A DNA stretch of 64,000 nt from Candidatus Nitrososphaera evergladensis SR1 (GTDB lineage: Archaea > Thermoproteota > Nitrososphaeria > Nitrososphaerales > Nitrososphaeraceae). The DNA lies in NCBI RefSeq assembly GCF_000730285.1, contig NZ_CP007174.1:248001-312000 (forward strand). Reading direction: 5' to 3'. The notes under the pieces were generated by a model that saw only the letters and a program-made list of their open reading frames with translations, was not told the origin of the DNA and did not search any database. Made by a program: the position numbers and the translations under genes. Each line of letters opens with the position of its first letter. Positions within the stretch are counted from its first letter, which is position 1. Shown here piece by piece: positions 7,407 through 59,262 of the stretch.

Positions 7407-8414
7407 ATGTAGATGCGAGCTGGAGTAGGTATGAATATTAGTAAAAACACTTATGCAAGACCATTATGCAGAAATTATATGGAATCGAGCTCCTGATCAG
7501 GATACAAATTTTTTTCAATTATGATCCACCTCTCCCATATGGCAAACTTTCTGCCTGAATCCATGCTATTTGAGAGGCATTAGATCTGAGATTGGATGGC
7601 AGGCCAAAGTCATAGAAAGAGCTCTTGCAGCTACCAAGATGTCATAGGAGAACTATACGATCCTAGTCCTTATGGTGGGGTGGTAGATGACAATGATGCG
7701 CATATCTATTGCCGATTCTGATGCGAACCGTTGATGCAGGTAAGGACGTGGATGGTTCAAGATCCTAAACCATAGCCGCGGCAGGCGCGATTACACCGTC
7801 AAGATTTATGTCTGGAACAGTGTCAGCGGCTCTCCAACATCTCTGTCCGAAGTTACGGCCAAGTCGTTCAGCGCTACGGCATAGGGAGCACAAAAAGGAA
7901 GAACTCGAAAGAAGAAGTGGAGAGAGAGAAAAGTCTGTCGAGTATGAAATAAGAGGCTAGCTTGCGCTACTTATTTCCCCTCTTTCTCTCTTTCTTTATC
8001 TCTCTCTCTCTCTCTCTCATCTTTTTTTTGCAAAGAATCCAAAGATTGACCATTGCAAGGAGTATTTCATTAACGAATTTTTGTGAGATATGTAGAGACC
8101 CTCCTGAACGATCCCTTTGTATCCAAGAGTCAGCAGCTTCTCTTTTCACTTCTTGCTACTACTGTCTGGCTTCTTTCCCTTTCTATCTTTGCCTAGAGAA
8201 TTTTCAGAGAGATTCCACCTTGTGCGCGGCTATCTCGGTATGACGACTTGTTTACTTGGCTGCCTGCCTGCTTGCTTCTATTCTACAGGGTTCTGGTCCG
8301 GCAATCGAAACCTTTAAAGCAACAATGACCGTTGCAATCCCTGACGGACGTCTCTATTCTTCACTAACGAAAAAAGACTTGTGACGATTTAGGCGAACGG
8401 AGTGAAAAATCAAA
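7407..8414. other. Intergenic with surface-protein remnant and CT tract
   Basis: About 1 kb without an intact gene. It holds the fragment of a secreted surface protein at 7756-7884 (listed separately) and a long CT-rich tract around 7975-8020. The remaining short frames have skewed composition and I do not call them. Confidence 0.5.
7756..7884 (+). pseudogene. C-terminal fragment of a secreted surface protein
   Basis: In the plus frame ending with the stop at 7884 the sequence reads DYTVKIYVWNSVSGSPTS followed by LSEVTAKSF. This strand pattern closely resembles the last domain of secreted thaumarchaeal proteins (a Tyr-Thr-Val strand, Val-Trp, Ser-Pro-Thr, Leu-Ser). There is no start codon or intact frame upstream, and the sequence just before Asp at 7789 appears to continue in another frame, so this is a decayed 3' end. 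The surface-protein link rests on recalled family resemblance. Confidence 0.45.
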
Positions 8415-19297: not shown

Positions 19298-20614
19298 ACC
19301 ATATTAGGTTGCAAGCAATTAATGTCGCTTTCGCCACGTAATTATGTTATTTTGATCGGTTGAAAATTGTATGTAATCGATCACTCTTGCATCCCTTCGC
19401 TCAGCTTCAGAAAATAACTGACGATTAGTCTCTCTCTCTCTCTCTCTCTGAAAGAACATAAGGACCAATGATCCCATCCCCGGAATGATGCCGACGATTA
19501 AGGAGACAGGACCGCATGTGGAAGTCGCTTTTTTGTGTATGTGTGTACATATGTTCTTTTGAATCCGCGATATAAAAGACTCGATTGACCTAGTTCTGCC
19601 GAACACTGTATATCACGAGACTGGAGGGGTCGACGTCGGCTTTTGCATCAGCAAATGTTTTGGCTTGCAAGGATGGAACAAGACGAGCCAACCGCCAAGT
19701 GTCCGACATCCACCCCTTGACTATAGTAATTCTATTCAACTCTTAAATGATTTTCTATCGGTATTATCTTATGTAGGATGAAACTCTTTTAATCTTATAC
19801 GTTCAACAATTAGCGAGACCAGTCTAATAGATTCGCCTCTAAAGAGACCGGTCGGTAGAGACGGACAAGGGCCTGAAAGCTTGGAATTAGAAGGAAAGCC
19901 ATGGTGAGTAAGACCCTGCTTCTTCTTCATTTGATTGAAAAGCCACCCGCGCCCCCTCGAGGATTGAACGGGACTCTGTAAGTAGCGCCCAGGTGCACGT
20001 GGCAGGGACGCGGGGTGCCATGTCGAATGAGTGCACTGTTCAATACCTTTCAATGGTAAATAACGTCTGAGTAGGCAAACCTTAGAAGCTCTTCCTAGTA
20101 ATGACAATGCGCTGCTTGTGTGAGCGGAGACCCAAGAACCGAGACAGGGTCGGTATGAACACGATAAACCTGCCTTTCGCAGCTTTTTTTAGAGCCTACA
20201 GACTTTTACAACATTTTAGTTTAAACGAGTATCGAATGTTCTGTCCCGACCTAGAAGTCGGGAGCAGAGACATGCTAGCCATTCTGAAGGTACAGGTTGC
20301 AGTGACAGTGTACCTCCAGCAGTAATTCTTTAGATTTTGAAATAAAAAGACTTTGGTGATGAGTTGCAAAAAGCTGTAAAACCACTTGCAACAAGATTTG
20401 TTCTACGCATCCTTAACCTTTTATTTTATAATTTCGAGAATTATTATGCTGTAACGCGAGAAATCCATGTGGCGCCAGAAAACAAAAACATGGTTGTCGA
20501 GATCAGGCTTGGGCTGGCTCGCAGCAGGTAAAGGCTTACAGTTTGCGCCAGCCACCCCTGGCCTCTAATTGGCATCCTTCAGCTTGTAAATGCTGTATTG
20601 TACTGAAGTCCTTG
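19298..20614. other. Long intergenic region with one hairpin repeat
   Basis: About 1.3 kb. Holds a CT microsatellite near 19430-19450 and one copy of the CCCGCG-type hairpin repeat at 19943-20018. Several frames of 70-110 codons cross it but their compositions look non-coding and none is supported. Confidence 0.4.
19943..20018. repeat. CCCGCG/CGCGGG hairpin repeat, outlying copy
   Basis: Left arm CCACCCGCGCCCCCT, right arm AGGGACGCGGGGTG, imperfectly complementary with a loop of about 45 bases. The arms match the hairpin family clustered at 36.5-41.6 kb. Confidence 0.55.
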
Positions 20615-36381: not shown

Positions 36382-36415
36382 ACCTTCTAAGGCTTGTCTA
36401 CTCAGAGGTTATTTA
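36382..36415. repeat. 34-bp box, copy 1
   Basis: Begins ACCTTCTAAGGCTTGTCTAC and ends GAGGTTATTTA. Similar boxes lie at 37009-37042 and 40400-40434. Each stands 47-79 bases before a CCCGCG hairpin, so box and hairpin look like one composite element. Confidence 0.6.
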
Positions 36416-36493: not shown

Positions 36494-36571
36494 CACCCGC
36501 GCTCTCTGTGCAGGCAAAAAACCTCTCCACGTCTGACATGGTTCCACAAGTCTAATTGGAAGGCGCGGGTA
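36494..36571. repeat. CCCGCG/CGCGGG hairpin repeat
   Basis: Arms ACCCGCGC (36495-36502) and GCGCGGGT (36563-36570) are perfectly complementary. The loop contains GTCTGACATG and the right arm is preceded by GTCTAATTGGAAG, both shared with the copy at 40492-40582. Confidence 0.7.
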
Positions 36572-36908
36572 TTCGTCTCTATCTCTGATTCAATACAAGC
36601 AGAATTAAAAGTGCAAGGCCAAGAAAGCCGGCTAATGATTCACCACCACGCGAACCTTGGTCAGGTTTTCCTGGCCCTGTAACGGTCTTTGGGGTTAACG
36701 ACTGTTGCCTGAATATATGCTGGCAAGTAGATAAAGTGTCAGATTACATAGAAATAATATTCTGGAATTTCATAGAATTATTGCAGTGTACATGCTTTGC
36801 ATGCCTAATCTCGACCAAAGCATGAAGCAAGATCATAATATATTCCGGAATTAGACACCACTATTTTTATTATTTTCAAAAGTATAGTTCTTTCAGAGTC
36901 ATACCATT

Positions 36909-36973
36909 CCTGCGTCCCTTCAATAACACCCCTGTTGTACTACTGGTTATCTCGCTGGACAGAGGGACGCGGG
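36909..36973. repeat. CCCGCG/CGCGGG hairpin repeat, diverged copy
   Basis: Arms CCTGCGTCCCT and AGGGACGCGGG pair over 11 bases with one G-T pair. The loop is about 43 bases and not obviously similar to the others. Confidence 0.6.
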
Positions 36974-37008
36974 GAATAATTTCGATTATGGTTGTTCGAA
37001 CTCAAACG

Positions 37009-37042
37009 ACCTTCTAAATTTTGTCTACTGAGAGATTATTTA
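37009..37042. repeat. 34-bp box, copy 2
   Basis: ACCTTCTAAATTTTGTCTAC, then GAGAGATTATTTA. See copy 1 at 36382. Confidence 0.55.
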
Positions 37043-37088
37043 TCATCACATTGTAGCAATATCGCTCTGGGGTAGATCAGAGCAAGGG

Positions 37089-37153
37089 CACCCGCGTCCT
37101 TTTGCGTACGCTTTGTACCTGATCTGCAGACAGTCATAGCAGGGGCGCGGGTG
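37089..37153. repeat. CCCGCG/CGCGGG hairpin repeat
   Basis: Arms CACCCGCGTCC and GGGCGCGGGTG pair over 11 bases with one G-T pair. A T-run follows the right arm (GTGTGTTTTT), so this copy could work as a terminator. Confidence 0.65.
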
Positions 37154-37304
37154 TGTTTTTAATCCATATAACACAAAGAGGGAGAGACCCTATCATTTAC
37201 TTTCTAACCCCAAGCTTTCAGACCTAACGAGCAGGTAGGTGTGTATGTATGTGTATGTGTGCCTATCTTTCTTTCTTCTTGGAGGCGAGTCTTCGTGGAC
37301 TAGT

Positions 37305-38341
37305 TGTTGTACTACCGGACATGGTTGACATTTTAGCTACCCAACATGGCTGACACTCCAGTCTTGGAGTGTAGCAACAAATGGATAGAATAGAAACACG
37401 ACTCAGAATGATAACCATGCTGGAGTATTCTGGCAAAACAGTATCAGACGTTTGTGCAGAATTTGGAGTTTCCAGAGAAACATGGTACAAATGGAAGAAA
37501 CGCTATGACACGTACGGCCTGGACGGGCTGAAGGACCTGTCGAGAAGGCCGCACCACATCAAATATGTCAAGGTGACAGCTGATGTGGAAAAGCTCATCC
37601 TCGAACTGCGGCTGAATCACCGGTTTGGTCCAAGGAGGATAGGCTTCAGACTAAGGAAAAAGTACGGTGTGGTATTAGCTGCAAAGACCATTTACCACGT
37701 CCTGAAGAAGCACAAGCTGAATGTACTGTCAGTCAAGCTAAAGAGAAAGTACAAACGGTTTGAGAAGAAACACTCCAATGACATGGTCCAGATGGATACC
37801 AAGGGGCCATTCTACTTGAGAGGATCGAGAGAAAAGCAGTACCTGACCCATTGCATAGACGACTGCTCAAGAAAGGTGGTGAGCGAATGGGTAAACAGGC
37901 GTTCAACAGAAGAGTCGCTTATGGTGCTCAAAAAGTGGATTGCAGAGAATGGAAAGCCAAAGAAAGTGATGCATGACGGCGGAAAGCAGTTTGTATCCCG
38001 GGGATTCCAGAAATTCCTTCAGGACAACGACAGCATCAAAGACAAGCAAATTCCACCAGGTTACCCACAGGCGCAGGGGAAGGTTGAGGCGTACAACAAG
38101 ATAGTCATATCGGAATTTCTGGAAGTAGAGGAGCTAAAGGGCAAAGAAGATGGCAAGAAAAAGTATGAGGCATTTGTCTGGTTCTACAACAATGAAAGGG
38201 AACATGGCGGCATAGGCGGCATGACACCGGCCGAGAAATTCAGAAAACGGTTAAAGCAACCGGGGTTGCAGGCAAAAGCAAGACAAAAAGTGTCAGTGAT
38301 GTCGGTACATCAATTTGTCAACCATGTCCGGTAGTACAACA
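37305..38341 (+). mobile_element. Complete IS481-type insertion sequence
   Basis: A 1037-bp element bounded by perfect terminal inverted repeats that begin TGTTGTACTACCGG (37305-37330) and end with the exact complement (38316-38341). It is flanked by the direct repeat ACTAGT at 37299-37304 and 38342-38347. NCTAGN is the known target of IS481 elements, so both family and recent insertion are supported. Inside the left end, ACATGGTTGACA (37319-37330) is repeated with one change at 37344-37355, a likely second transposase-binding site. One intact transposase gene fills the element. No second copy lies in this window. Confidence 0.93.
37381..38334 (+). CDS. IS481-family DDE transposase
   Basis: Cuts and joins DNA at the terminal inverted repeats. 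An N-terminal helix-turn-helix (KTVSDVCAEFGVSRETWYKW) is followed by a second DNA-binding segment and the DDE core: first Asp in MVQMDTKGPF, second Asp in VMHDGGKQF, Glu in AQGKVEAYNK. At 317 residues it has the usual length, and no frameshift is present. The right inverted repeat overlaps the last codons. The gene should be functional. Confidence 0.95.
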   Translation: MDRIETRLRMITMLEYSGKTVSDVCAEFGVSRETWYKWKKRYDTYGLDGLKDLSRRPHHIKYVKVTADVEKLILELRLNHRFGPRRIGFRLRKKYGVVLAAKTIYHVLKKHKLNVLSVKLKRKYKRFEKKHSNDMVQMDTKGPFYLRGSREKQYLTHCIDDCSRKVVSEWVNRRSTEESLMVLKKWIAENGKPKKVMHDGGKQFVSRGFQKFLQDNDSIKDKQIPPGYPQAQGKVEAYNKIVISEFLEVEELKGKEDGKKKYEAFVWFYNNEREHGGIGGMTPAEKFRKRLKQPGLQAKARQKVSVMSVHQFVNHVR

Positions 38342-38582
38342 ACTAGTTATTAATTGTAGAACGCGAGAAACTAGAACAGTAATATCCTGTGCTATGCGGC
38401 AGTCGCTATCTTTTATCTTATTATTACAGATGAATATTATCCTTCATAAGATACAGAAATTTTTAGATACTACTAATATGGAAAAGAGAAACTCTAGGGT
38501 AATTCCATATTAAATTTACAACATGGTGGTGTTATAGGCGGATCTTGCTCAAGGCTTTAAAAACATCGTAGCATGTCAGCGC

Positions 38583-39329
38583 ATGAACAACAAGATGTCA
38601 AGTATCGCAGGAAACAAAAAGGTATTCGTCATCTTTTCCGTGCTAGCTTTGAGCATTGCACTTGCATCGTCGACCATAGTGTCGCCGACTGCTGCGTTTG
38701 CAAGCTCTAGCTACGGGGAAGAAGATGATCATCACCACCACAAAAAATACACCAAGGATGATGTACGCAAATGGCTAGAAGATCACGAGGATGAATGTTC
38801 CGACAACCACATCTATCGCTGGATCGCCAACCACTTTTACAAATGGGAAGACGACCACAAATCAAAGTGGATCGTCAAGCACTTCCAGTGGGTAGTTGAC
38901 AATGTAGACTGCTCGGATGACGAGGACCACGACTACAACTACTACGGCGAAGACGACCACAAATACTATGGAGACAAGGACTACAAGTACTATGGTGATG
39001 ACGATGACGAAGAAGGCCACAAGTACTACAGGGACAACAGTGAAGATCACAAATCCTACGATGATCACAAGGACTACAACAAGTACAACAGCAACGACGA
39101 CGATAATAATGGCAAAGATCACGAGTACAGTAAGGACGGCAACAATGAAGATCACAAATCATATGATGATGATCACAAAGACTACATCAAGTACAACAAT
39201 TACGAGGAAGGCAACGACAAGGATCACAAAGACTACAAAAAGTATGAAGATGACAACAACAAGAATGGCAAGGAACACAACATAGAAGTTGCACTCAACC
39301 TTCCGCTGGTTAGCGTCGCAGTGAACTGA
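38583..39329 (+). CDS. Secreted His/Asp/Lys/Tyr-rich low-complexity protein
   Basis: A signal peptide (residues about 10-42) leads a short helical region with conserved-looking Trp and Cys (VRKWLEDHEDECSD; YRWIANHFYKWEDDHKSKW), then about 130 residues of Asp, His, Lys, Tyr and Asn repeats such as HKYYGDKDYKYYGD and EDHKSYDDHKDYNKY. It ends in a hydrophobic segment (NLPLVSVAVN). Same design as the gene at 28570-29172. The His/Asp repeats could bind copper or other metals, which would suit a copper-dependent organism; this is inference. It lies just right of the insertion sequence. Confidence 0.8.
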   Translation: MNNKMSSIAGNKKVFVIFSVLALSIALASSTIVSPTAAFASSSYGEEDDHHHHKKYTKDDVRKWLEDHEDECSDNHIYRWIANHFYKWEDDHKSKWIVKHFQWVVDNVDCSDDEDHDYNYYGEDDHKYYGDKDYKYYGDDDDEEGHKYYRDNSEDHKSYDDHKDYNKYNSNDDDNNGKDHEYSKDGNNEDHKSYDDDHKDYIKYNNYEEGNDKDHKDYKKYEDDNNKNGKEHNIEVALNLPLVSVAVN

Positions 39330-39793
39330 TCCAACAACAGCAAAATAGCGATTTCATAATCCGTCCAAAAAATACCCAACACGTAAAAGGATAGGCTGCA
39401 GCAAAAAGCCTCTCTTTCTTTCTATCTTTTTCTTGAACATTTCCAAGAATAACAAAAATTGAGTGTCGCAGTATCGTGCACATTTGTATCTAGATATTTT
39501 TGTGTAACAGCGACGACAGTACCTTTCTTCCTCTGAGAATCTGTTGTGCTATTTCGTCTCGCGGAGGACACGAGTGTTTTTTCGTTCGTTGGTCTCAGCT
39601 CAGCAAATGGAAGTATCATCTTCTAGGATTTGGCTTCTCAGAAATTTTTGTCATCCTGTGTGTGTGATTCTGCAGATACATGACGTAACTACAAGCATAT
39701 GCATACACGCACACATCGCATCCGTGTCCTTCTCTCATAAACAAAGGTGCATGTACATAGCTCTAGACAGAGAGATGGGCACGTGTGAGCGTG
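39330..39793. other. Intergenic, nothing recognised
   Basis: Spacer of 0.46 kb. Frames of 65-106 codons cross it on both strands without coding character. Confidence 0.35.
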
Positions 39794-40090
39794 CTATCCA
39801 ACAGGAGATCCGGTCCATGACCACGAACTGGTCACTAGCCGCGTTACTATTTTCTGACGTATGACATCAATTCGAGTGACGTACATCTGTCGCTCTTTAT
39901 TCTCTTCAATATCGTCAGGATTGTTCTTGATGGTTTCCTCAATATTCGCGATTTCCTTGGCTAGGATAAACCTCAATAGTTCGAGATCTCCTGGAGTTAG
40001 CGAACTTTGCCTTTCTATGCGCATACGCTTTATGATCTCATCGAGTGTGCCGGCCTCTAAAAAAGTTGTTGAAAAAGGAACTTTCCACAT
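39794..40090 (-). CDS. Hypothetical helical protein (98 aa)
   Basis: Acidic and basic residues in helical register (LDEIIKRMRIERQ; ELLRFILAKEIANIEETIK). No membrane segment or motif. The last ten residues look non-coding, so the true end may be disturbed. A small gene lies nine bases upstream on the same strand, and the two could be halves of one broken gene. Confidence 0.45.
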   Translation of the reverse strand: MWKVPFSTTFLEAGTLDEIIKRMRIERQSSLTPGDLELLRFILAKEIANIEETIKNNPDDIEENKERQMYVTRIDVIRQKIVTRLVTSSWSWTGSPVG

Positions 40091-40099
40091 CTTTATCCC

Positions 40100-40306
40100 T
40101 TATCTGGAAGTCAGTATGTGACTAGATTTAGCAATGGTAGGATAATGGAGGCTGCTGACCTTTGCATAGTTATACCTCTCTTCTACCAATGGGACAGCAG
40201 AGTCCCGTAGTATGGTTTGCGTTGACATTGGGGTATGTCCTGCTAATTGCCGGAGTATAAGAGCTTGGTTAACAAGGTCCATGCTCTTATCTGGAGCTGT
40301 GTACAA
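40100..40306 (-). CDS. Hypothetical protein (68 aa)
   Basis: Short frame with plausible composition (MDLVNQALILRQLAGHTPM; PLVEERYNYAKV). Directly upstream of the 98-aa gene on the same strand. No family recognised; may be a fragment. Confidence 0.4.
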   Translation of the reverse strand: MYTAPDKSMDLVNQALILRQLAGHTPMSTQTILRDSAVPLVEERYNYAKVSSLHYPTIAKSSHILTSR

Positions 40307-40399
40307 TGTGGATGGCGTGGGAATATATTCTTCTTTTCTTTATCCTCTACTACAATCAAGTTATAACCAAGAGGTATTTGAGCTCAAATGAACAGGAAA

Positions 40400-40434
40400 A
40401 CCTTCTGAGGTTTGCTTCCTTGGAGACTTAATTA
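40400..40434. repeat. 34-bp box, copy 3
   Basis: ACCTTCTGAGGTTTGCTTCC, then GGAGACTTAATTA, 58 bases before the hairpin at 40492. See copy 1 at 36382. Confidence 0.6.
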
Positions 40435-40491
40435 CTATTATTATCCATAGACAATTGCATGCACATAGACGAGGATATATGCACACACATG

Positions 40492-40582
40492 CCCGCGCCC
40501 TCCCAAGCACGCGTGCACACGCACGTACACCTATCAGGGTCTGACATGATGGTGTTGTACTCGTCTAATTCAAGGACGCGGG
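40492..40582. repeat. CCCGCG/CGCGGG hairpin repeat, long-loop copy
   Basis: Arms CCCGCGCCCT and AGGACGCGGG pair except at one position. The loop contains GTCTGACATG and CGTCTAATTCAAGG, shared with the copy at 36494-36571. A run of T follows the right arm. Confidence 0.7.
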
Positions 40583-40623
40583 TTTTTGTGTGTATGATTT
40601 TTTCATTCACGTACAAGAAAGAT

Positions 40624-40840
40624 ATAGAACAATCGGAGGGAGCGCCCTTGCGTTGTCAATATTAATGCAATGTTTGAAAACATTATCAAGTTAGCCTCGT
40701 TCATTAAACCCGCGCTCCTCATGATCAACGTCTGGACTGGCATCTCACTCTGGGAGCGCGGGTATATATCCATTCTTCATTATTTTACAACAAACGAATA
40801 GAACAATCGGCAGGAGCGCCGATGCATTGGTAATATTAAG
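40624..40840. repeat. Duplicated leader unit, copies at 40624-40666 and 40798-40840
   Basis: Both copies begin ATAGAACAATCGG, continue with GGAGCGCC and end with AATATTAA. They are 174 bases apart, and the hairpins that follow them (40708 and 40885) are 177 bases apart. So unit and hairpin were duplicated together in tandem. Confidence 0.7.
40708..40763. repeat. CCCGCG/CGCGGG hairpin repeat
   Basis: Perfect 11-bp arms ACCCGCGCTCC and GGAGCGCGGGT around a 34-base loop. Confidence 0.78.
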
Positions 40841-40884
40841 AGATGCTGCCTCTAAATGTTATGACGACGTTACCTGGGACCACT

Positions 40885-40933
40885 ATACCCGCGCTACTCT
40901 ATTTGGCTTGGCATTGCAATGTAGCGCGGGTAT
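40885..40933. repeat. CCCGCG/CGCGGG hairpin repeat, best copy
   Basis: Perfect 13-bp arms ATACCCGCGCTAC and GTAGCGCGGGTAT around a 23-base loop. The most symmetrical member of the family. Confidence 0.8.
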
Positions 40934-41339
40934 CCTCACCTCTTTTTCATCAAACTTTGAAAATGAGAGAGGCCGGAGATAATTTAAACTTTAATAGCAT
41001 TCAATTAATGTGGACCTGTGGCTAGTCGGCATCAATTTTAATAATTATTATTTCAAAAGCAGAATCACGTACGCAGACAAATACACACACGCGTATACGC
41101 GTGTGTGTACATAACAATAACCACCCAAAATCCACTTGTGCCTCCCTCCTTCCCCCCCCCAACCTACAAACATATGTGCGCATCGAACAGTTGCTCTCCG
41201 TCTCTGCTCTCTAGAGGGGTGCAGGAATTCTTACTGTCGAAGCTGTCTTTTGCGGATGTCTCTACAGTATTACTCTTGCATTAATTTTAATAGTCTTTTC
41301 CAAAAAGAGGACTCGCGACCCAACTTTGGGTACATCCTG

Positions 41340-41392
41340 CCCGCGTTCCTTGCTGTTGTGCTTCGAATCGACATGATGTTTAAGGACGCGGG
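41340..41392. repeat. CCCGCG/CGCGGG hairpin repeat
   Basis: Arms CCCGCGTTCCTT and AAGGACGCGGG pair with a single bulged base. The loop contains CGACATGATG, like other copies. Confidence 0.7.
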
Positions 41393-41485
41393 TAGTTTCC
41401 TTATCCTTACTAAATATTATCCCTACAGTACTATGGATTTCTTCTAGAATTAAGGAATGAGTGGAAGATAAGCTCCTATACTCTG

Positions 41486-41507
41486 GCAGGCTCTAGGTTG
41501 AGCCTGC
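41486..41507. terminator. Stem-loop, possible terminator
   Basis: GCAGGCTC and GAGCCTGC around six bases, perfect 8-bp stem. No strong T-run follows, so a terminator role is only possible. Confidence 0.4.
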
Positions 41508-41558
41508 ATGACGGTTAATACATTTTCGATTCTTACTATAGAACACTTTGACATGTCA

Positions 41559-41614
41559 CCCGCGCCCTTGTTAGCGCTTGACATTGCAGCTAAGAACGCG
41601 AGGAAGGGCGCGGG
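41559..41614. repeat. CCCGCG/CGCGGG hairpin repeat
   Basis: Perfect 11-bp arms CCCGCGCCCTT and AAGGGCGCGGG around a 34-base loop. Confidence 0.78.
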
Positions 41615-42441: not shown

Positions 42442-42804
42442 TCAGGGTTTACCTTGAGCGTATGTCTTGGCACCGGTGAAATCAATTGCCACACAGGGTT
42501 CGTTTCCGACTACCCATGCATCATGTCCTGGAGGAACTAATCCTGTATCGCCAGCGGAAAATTCCTGTTCGCTTCCATCGTCCATCCTAACTTTCATTCT
42601 ACCAGAAATCACATACATCGTGTGGGATTGCTTGCAAGAATCCGTCTTGACGATGGGCTTCACCGACGTAGACCACTTCCAACCTGGCTCAAATGTTGCT
42701 TTGCCGATTGTCGCTTCTCCAAGATTTGTTAGGTCGATTTTTCCATTATCGAATTTTCTTGTCTCGTCCGGACTTGACATACTCTTTCTTTGCATTTCCA
42801 CCAT
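42442..42804 (-). CDS. Cupin-domain protein (120 aa)
   Basis: A single cupin barrel. Motif 1 is degenerate around CKQSHTMYVISGRMKVRMDDG and motif 2 is PPGHDAWVVGNEP. At least two His (SHT and GHD) could bind a metal ion. Small cupins of this form often sense or bind small molecules, or act as isomerases or dioxygenases. Stand-alone gene; the start MVEMQRKS is supported by composition. Confidence 0.85.
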   Translation of the reverse strand: MVEMQRKSMSSPDETRKFDNGKIDLTNLGEATIGKATFEPGWKWSTSVKPIVKTDSCKQSHTMYVISGRMKVRMDDGSEQEFSAGDTGLVPPGHDAWVVGNEPCVAIDFTGAKTYAQGKP

Positions 42805-58674: not shown

Positions 58675-59262
58675 TTATCCTTCCTCTTCTTCACCACTAC
58701 TCTCTTCTATTGCATTTTGTATTACTGACTTTTCCACCGGTATGGGAGGCGATGTAAAAAGCACGTTTCCGTCGCCGGCGTCAACAATTACCGTGTATGT
58801 GGTGCTGTTTGGCACATCGGCTAGAACCACGTTGTACACAAGGTAGCCTTGTATTACAGCTAGGTGGGCATCAACCACTGTGCCGTTGAAAGCCTGGGTT
58901 TTTGCAATGTTTGTGGCATTGGCAACCGTTACGTTCAGGTTCTCTTCTGGGAATTCGTCTGCCGTTGCGTTTTCGTTAACGCGTATCGTTCCTACAATCA
59001 TTTCAGGTCCCTGTTCCGATGCCTGTGCGGTGTTGTTCTCTTCAGGAGCTGTTATGGTACTGTTGTTTTCTTGGTCCGTAGTTGTATTGTTCTCTTCAGG
59101 AGCTGTTATGGTACTGTTGTCTCCCTGCTGGTCGGTCATTGTCTGTGCGGAAGCAACTGATGGCAACAACAACAATATTGCCGACGATCCAACAGCGGCC
59201 ACGACAGCAACCAACAAGACAGGAATAAACAACTTTTTGTTTCCTGTTGGGCTTGACATCAA
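58675..59262 (-). CDS. Secreted PepSY-like protein
   Basis: Signal peptide (residues about 10-40), then an Asn/Thr/Glu-rich linker with a duplicated STITAPEENNTT unit, then one PepSY-like domain (VANATNIAKTQAFNGTVVDA; YNVVLADVPNSTTYTVIVDA) and an acidic end. Related in layout to the repeats of the gene at 55144-55944. Function unknown; may regulate an extracellular protease. Confidence 0.8.
   Translation of the reverse strand: MMSSPTGNKKLFIPVLLVAVVAAVGSSAILLLLPSVASAQTMTDQQGDNSTITAPEENNTTTDQENNSTITAPEENNTAQASEQGPEMIVGTIRVNENATADEFPEENLNVTVANATNIAKTQAFNGTVVDAHLAVIQGYLVYNVVLADVPNSTTYTVIVDAGDGNVLFTSPPIPVEKSVIQNAIEESSGEEEEG

Follow-up and report, generated by a model that had tools for sequence, protein, structure and literature searches.

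Intergenic hairpins with covarying stems in Nitrososphaera as candidate genes for antisense RNAs to the 5' ends of leaderless mRNAs

Introduction

In Methanosarcina mazei, the small RNAs sRNA154 and sRNA41 are encoded in intergenic regions and act in trans on several targets, and an anti-ribosome-binding-site sequence in loop 2 of sRNA154 blocks translation initiation (PMC5867862). The same review names the way in which small RNAs affect leaderless mRNAs of archaea as an open point of the field (PMC5867862). A different layout is found in the alphaproteobacterial alpha-r14 or 'cuckoo' RNAs (NfeR1), whose stems are highly different from one another while an unpaired anti-Shine-Dalgarno word, CCUCCUCCC, is ultraconserved, and which have many targets, including transport proteins (PMC10746234). 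Our literature search turned up no trans-acting small-RNA regulon for Nitrososphaera or other Thaumarchaeota, and the transcriptome paper on N. viennensis makes no mention of ncRNA.

Here, we describe a family of intergenic hairpins in a Nitrososphaera chromosome of 2,954,373 bases, starting from a stretch of 64,000 nucleotides (bases 248001-312000; hereafter the window, within which positions are counted from its first letter, all others being genome positions). Like sRNA154 and sRNA41, the hairpins would give rise to intergenic archaeal RNAs, whose expression is predicted here, with a hairpin loop as the antisense to multiple targets. In contrast to the M. mazei RNAs, the Nitrososphaera loop would cover the start and the first codons of leaderless mRNAs instead of a ribosome binding site, one antisense is shared by paralogous and non-paralogous RNA genes, and the host belongs to a different phylum. 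The likeness to the cuckoo RNAs is one of layout only, namely variable stems around a constant antisense loop: those RNAs are bacterial and anti-Shine-Dalgarno, whereas the Nitrososphaera loops are anti-start-codon, no sequence relation is to be expected, and the word CCUCCUCCC, the mark of the cuckoo/alpha-r14 RNAs, is absent from the hairpin loops that we read. The hairpins belong to neither of these two families. With REP/BIME and MITE-like repeats they have in common that they are multi-copy intergenic palindromes, yet they lack target duplications and long shared sequence, and they have large variable loops, boxes of their own and antisense sequence. The hosts are soil ammonia oxidisers of global importance, and our reading makes a concrete prediction that is easily tested in a cultured relative, i.e. 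that a set of leaderless mRNAs for exported proteins is covered precisely at the 5' end by a hairpin RNA.

Results and discussion

Hairpins with covarying arms within and beyond the window

All nine hairpins listed in a first-pass annotation of the window are present, with starts 1-3 bases away from the positions given there (Table 1), and their arms covary as it described, with both-sided changes at 11 of 14 pairs among 19 members of the family. Exact matches to CCCGCGN{30,60}CGCGGG number six in the window, whereas shuffles of the window contain 0.01 on average and never more than 1. Over the 14-bp arms of the 19 members, 89% of the cells are paired, a value that drops to 36-58% when the partner is slid by 1-3 columns. 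Doubly changed arm cells number 32 in these members, against 11.4 in shuffles (0/500 reach 32); since the alignment of the arms is manual and the CCCGCG core served to retrieve most members, the weight of this covariation should rest on the flanking eight pairs, that is, the outer and inner pairs outside the search pattern. The hairpin arms show the compensatory changes that characterize the conserved stem of a structured RNA.

Compared with shuffles, most hairpins fold with z-scores of -3 to -7, while the values are weaker for 36496 and 40492, and 19946 cannot be told from shuffles; loop lengths range from 30 to 80 nt. A covariance-model scan against Rfam left every hairpin unmatched up to E=1, which assigns them to no known Rfam family. 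The family counts about 20 members in the genome, the majority of them at 98-290 kb, so that the expectation of further genomic copies was borne out: the hairpins are real and not confined to the window. Two points of the first-pass annotation need correction. The hairpin at 19946, which it had set apart as an outlier, does exist but is an ordinary minus-strand member, whose upstream box is the one found at its siblings, and the supposedly gene-free region holds an IS481-type element as well as a gene for an exported, Asp/His-rich protein (at 38595). The IS481-type insertion sequence (37299-38347) lies inside the hairpin cluster, encodes a 317-aa rve/HTH transposase and has 59-bp inverted ends. 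Besides, the loop of hairpin 36909 contains TGTTGTACTACTGG, which is nearly identical to the end of this element.

Table 1. Hairpins, upstream boxes and related genes in the window. R1, covariance model from 12 hairpin copies; R2, model of box 1 alone; z, folding compared with shuffles.
Feature	Position	Strand	Evidence
Hairpin, box-1 class, listed as outlier in the first-pass annotation	19946..20014	-	R1 E=0.036 (not a training member); z only -0.8
Box 1 upstream of hairpin 19946	20053..20097	-	R2 E=1.4e-10
Box 1, promoter-like, ends TTATTTA, upstream of hairpin 36496	36382..36415	+	direct repeat D3; R2 E=1.6e-10
Hairpin, box-1 class, long loop	36496..36569	+	R1 E=3.7e-9 (training member); z -2.4
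Hairpin CCTGCGTCCCT/AGGGACGCGGG, no box found	36909..36973	.	sequence; arms in alignment A6
Box 1 upstream of hairpin 37091	37009..37042	+	repeat and R2, E=8.3e-9
Hairpin, box-1 class	37091..37151	+	core pattern; R1; z -3.9
Gene for exported protein MSSIAGNKK..., of target type; 3 mismatches to target box at start	38595..39329	+	
Box 1 copy before diverged hairpin	39610..39654	+	R2 E=8.9e-8
Tenth, diverged hairpin, arms CGTGTCC/GGGCACG, absent from the first-pass list	about 39721..39785	+	sequence; unscored by R1
Box 1 upstream of hairpin 40492	40393..40438	+	R2 E=3.8e-8
Hairpin, box-1 class, longest loop of the window, TTTTT after	40492..40582	+	R1, folding, T-run count
Box 2 (ATAGAACAATCGG...AATATTAA) upstream of hairpin 40709	40624..40665	+	repeat D2; alignment A4
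Hairpin of box-2 class with loop GTCTGGACTGGCATC, a candidate antisense to MSSPD starts	40709..40762	+	R1; z -4.7
Box 2 upstream of hairpin 40888	40798..40839	+	repeat; alignment A4
Hairpin, box-2 class, 13-bp perfect stem, z -5.4	40888..40930	+	
Hairpin, anti-ATG in loop, resembles genome 131128	41340..41392	+	R1; z -5.1
Hairpin, loop GCGCTTGACATTG, diverged anti-start form	41559..41614	+	R1; z -3.4
Cupin gene, start ATGTCAAGTCCGGACG, candidate and top-ranked predicted partner for loop of 40709	42442..42780	-	
Gene for exported protein MSSPTGNKK..., of target type; 1 mismatch to target box at start	58675..59259	-	

Upstream boxes and downstream T-runs

In a genome scan, most R1 matches fell between 119 and 131 kb or between 284 and 290 kb, and single ones at 268 and 788 kb. 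Box 1 (ACCTTCTAAGGTTTGCCTACTCAGAGATTATTTA) yielded nine strong R2 matches in the genome, each of which has a hairpin about 50-110 nt downstream, and R2 thereby recovered three hairpins missed by the first pattern, at 170.2 kb, 189.1 kb and 244.8 kb, the core of the first of these carrying a compensated change to TCCGCG/CGCGGA. Box 2 (ATAGAACAATCGGCAGGAGCGCCGATGCATTGTCAATATTAA) precedes 40709 and 40888 as well as the hairpins at genome 130745, 787940 and 188975. TATA-like words terminate both boxes, and a box-1 unit is directly followed by a box-2 unit three times (window 40.4-40.9 kb, 131 kb and 189 kb). Within 30 nt of the hairpin, a T-run is found on the 3' side in 11/22 cases and on the 5' side in 1/22. 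The hairpins are intergenic and, as predicted from the conserved boxes, would have their own promoters, in keeping with trans-acting antisense sRNAs; boxes upstream and a frequent T-run after the hairpin fit independent small-RNA genes, not mobile repeats.

The latter had been among the first-pass guesses, in the form of non-autonomous mobile elements or REP-like sites, and would be palindromes that spread in intergenic DNA. While the several intergenic copies, mostly clustered and with GC-rich palindromic ends, would suit such elements, a check of the stem edges found no target duplications, similarity is confined to box and arms, and a 201-bp search for long identity among copies returned only the query itself. 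The loops are also large, and two copies are syntenic with a second species (see below), leaving only a very slim chance for an origin of this kind. Exact CCCGCG/CGCGGG matches in relatives were mostly chance coding matches, often at or below the control, and nothing was found in a database-wide scan with the pattern, the database omitting the Nitrososphaera genome studied here and its near relatives.

A GC stem followed by a T-run, as seen in about half of the copies, is also what an ordinary transcription terminator looks like, and palindromes may serve as DNA-structure sites (replication, recombination, attC-like). However, five hairpins follow one another at 40.4-41.6 kb with no genes between them, each with its own loop and several with their own upstream box, the loops measure 30-80 nt, and loop sequence is conserved in the best copies, which makes these roles very improbable.

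Loops antisense to the starts of exported-protein genes

The two genomes with the word TTAGACTTGACATC in hairpin loops also have its reverse complement (ATG TCA AGT CTA ACA GGA AAC) at start codons, where it opens exported proteins of the type MSSLTGNKK... The second genome (G015; 2,527,938 bases), which we take to be that of Nitrososphaera viennensis EN76, represents another species with relatives of the family. Anti-start loops, with perfect reverse complements of 17-23 nt, occur in the family members 119196 and 130745 (17-18 nt in the latter) and on the unrelated, non-CCCGCG stems of 98704 (GGTCTAGCGTCTG/CAGACGCAAGACC, a type also present in G015) and 784227 (GCGGGGTAGGC/GCCTACTCCGC); thus, the same antisense recurs in four hairpins, whose stems are of three unrelated types. 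Over 23 nt, the loop of 119196 is perfectly complementary to gene 789763 and to G015 gene 2267187 (E about 2e-4), and it matches many further starts over 20-23 nt. Besides, loop variants track target variants, with GGCTTGACATC in 98704 corresponding to AGCC starts and CTGTAAGG in 784227 matching the variant start CCTTACAG at 175490.

Allowing up to three mismatches, a scan for the start box gave 22 matches against 0 in the control in the window's genome (about 16 genes and four hairpins) and 12 against 1 in G015 (8-9 genes and two hairpins), while in 16 other Nitrososphaera genomes matches stayed at background level and were not exported-protein gene starts. Several of the target genes encode a PepSY domain. 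Complementarity to the translation starts of several mRNAs, as expected of a trans-acting antisense RNA, is accordingly seen by sequence for the anti-start hairpins and not for the window copies.

Over 26 targets, conservation is high from -2 to +23 and low from -23 to -3, with a TATA box at -30 to -24. As the spacing from TATA box to transcription start is about 25 nt in archaea, the mRNA should begin at the ATG or within a few bases of it, so that the conserved, complementary block would form its 5' end. Within the block, third codon positions hardly vary (TCA 26/26, ACA 25/26, GGA 23/26), and after it they do, although part of the conservation of the starts could lie at the protein level, given that other signal peptides, lacking the full box, also begin with the amino acids MSS... 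The targets also share a promoter word, TTTTGCTCAAGCCTTTAAA (BRE/TATA-like), which may denote a separate transcriptional regulon of exported proteins. A third species (G012) has a TATA-bearing start, ATGTCCAGCTTGAAAGGAAACAAATAG (MSSLKGNK, then stop), possibly a broken relative of the target genes.

Near-fixation of synonymous positions would likewise follow if the start box were a DNA operator, e.g. for a repressor binding just past the transcription start, and the position of the block at -2 to +23 of promoters agrees with this; the hairpin copies would then be decoys or regulated promoters. A decoy, however, needs neither orientation nor stem, whereas the box in the hairpins is always antisense relative to the upstream box and the T-run, and always lies in the loop of a covarying stem. 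We regard an operator as highly improbable.

Conservation in a second species and proposed function

Two of the hairpins have syntenic counterparts in G015. Hairpin 98704 and G015 1698854 are surrounded by the same genes, and the gene next to 119196 is orthologous to the one next to G015 1650371. In both pairs, the upstream promoter-like block, which is other than box 1 or box 2, and the loop are conserved, the loops showing identity or near-identity over 17-20 nt, whereas the flanks differ and the arms differ with compensation, as illustrated by a G015 member with changed but compensated arms (ATACCTGCGTCC/GGGCGCAGGTAT) and an identical loop (CTGTTAGACTTGACATC). The 98704-type promoter (genome 98650-98900) contains an inverted repeat around the TATA box (ATTCTTCTATAAAAGAGAAT) that is identical in the two species, and CTAATCTTATTAG is found upstream of 119196; both are possible regulator sites. 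Elsewhere in G015 (2081211-2081440), box 1 is followed by a long hairpin, GCCTCCTTT/AAAGGAGGC, with a loop of about 100 nt, the opposite strand of which resembles a protein C-terminus (...FEDIIQFLIEEYKKK*) for which no source gene was found.

The identity between loops and starts could in principle reflect homology without function, if inverted gene-start fragments had been caught between inverted repeats and survived as relics. This would explain why the loops in the window are diverged and have no clear targets, and why certain hairpins have target genes nearby (genome 783-791 kb). Yet relics would hardly place one antisense in three unrelated stem types or keep syntenic loops across 17-20 nt as flanks and arms change, the latter with compensation, and no TATA box like that of the targets is present on the hairpins' other strand. 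We consider such an origin unlikely.

Instead, we favor, with a probability of roughly 0.7, the reading that the hairpins are genes for trans-acting antisense RNAs that would cover the 5' ends of leaderless mRNAs. A small RNA had been one of the first-pass guesses, and it gains support from the TATA-like upstream boxes, the 3' T-runs, the covarying stems, the syntenic orthologues and the anti-start loops. Each hairpin would be transcribed from its own upstream box, be it box 1, box 2 or another conserved block, and the RNA would fold into a GC-rich clamp of 10-14 bp, frequently with a T-run at its end, that exposes the loop as a single strand. In the best-understood cases, this strand would pair exactly with the initial 17-23 nt of leaderless mRNAs, a stretch that runs from -2 past the start codon and ends near codon 7. 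Such a duplex in the cell would hide the start codon and prevent ribosome loading, since leaderless mRNAs offer no other ribosome entry site, and in this manner a single RNA might repress a regulon of about 16 exported-protein genes. From the stems and boxes that they share with the other members, we infer that the window copies act likewise.

Loops of the window copies

Hairpins 40709, 40888 and genome 130745 have box 2 and stem in common, but the loops of the first two have drifted, that of 40888 being a diverged form of the anti-start loop in 130745. The loops of 41559 and 41340 retain the anti-ATG word. No window hairpin has a perfect complement of at least 15 nt at any gene start. Duplex prediction over 1.04 Mb of sampled genome ranked the cupin start at 42780 best for the 40709 loop, closely followed by another MSSPD gene at 2899989, and still preferred MSSLTGN starts for 41559; as the scores of window loops at starts fall inside the tail of shuffled loops, these partners are leads only. 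Hairpin 40709 may target the neighboring cupin gene and an MSSPD gene. Box-1 loops did no better than shuffles when matched to the TATA-bearing starts, about 670 in number, of a 1.04-Mb sample of the genome. The words GTCTGACATG and GTCTAATT, picked out in the first-pass annotation as shared between loops, led to no target for either.

Taken further, the family might constitute a diversifying repertoire of guide-like hairpin RNA genes, in which clamp and promoter stay constant and the anti-start-codon loop is swappable. Copies including those of the window would then drift after the diverging starts of paralogous exported-protein genes, and the outcome would be a variant-specific translational silencing of leaderless mRNAs. 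We put this forward tentatively and think it rather doubtful.

Some further matches were set aside. The 40492 loop contains AGACGAGTACAACACCA, with a 17-nt antisense match inside two paralogous coding regions (genome 103485 and 1686559) that is expected about 0.2 times by chance, and the antisense matches of 41559 and 40888 are gene-internal and do not fall at starts. A small-protein reading of the hairpins' opposite strand was rejected as well, its frames breaking after 5-40 codons at random points. Two other hairpin-like or palindromic stretches occur in the window. One, at 7903-8031, is long and hairpin-like with a sub-threshold Rfam match to MIR529 (E=0.006), and is probably unrelated to microRNA; the other, a 28-bp perfect palindrome at 41082-41109 (TACACACACGCGTA/TACGCGTGTGTGTA), lies in the same intergenic region as the hairpins.
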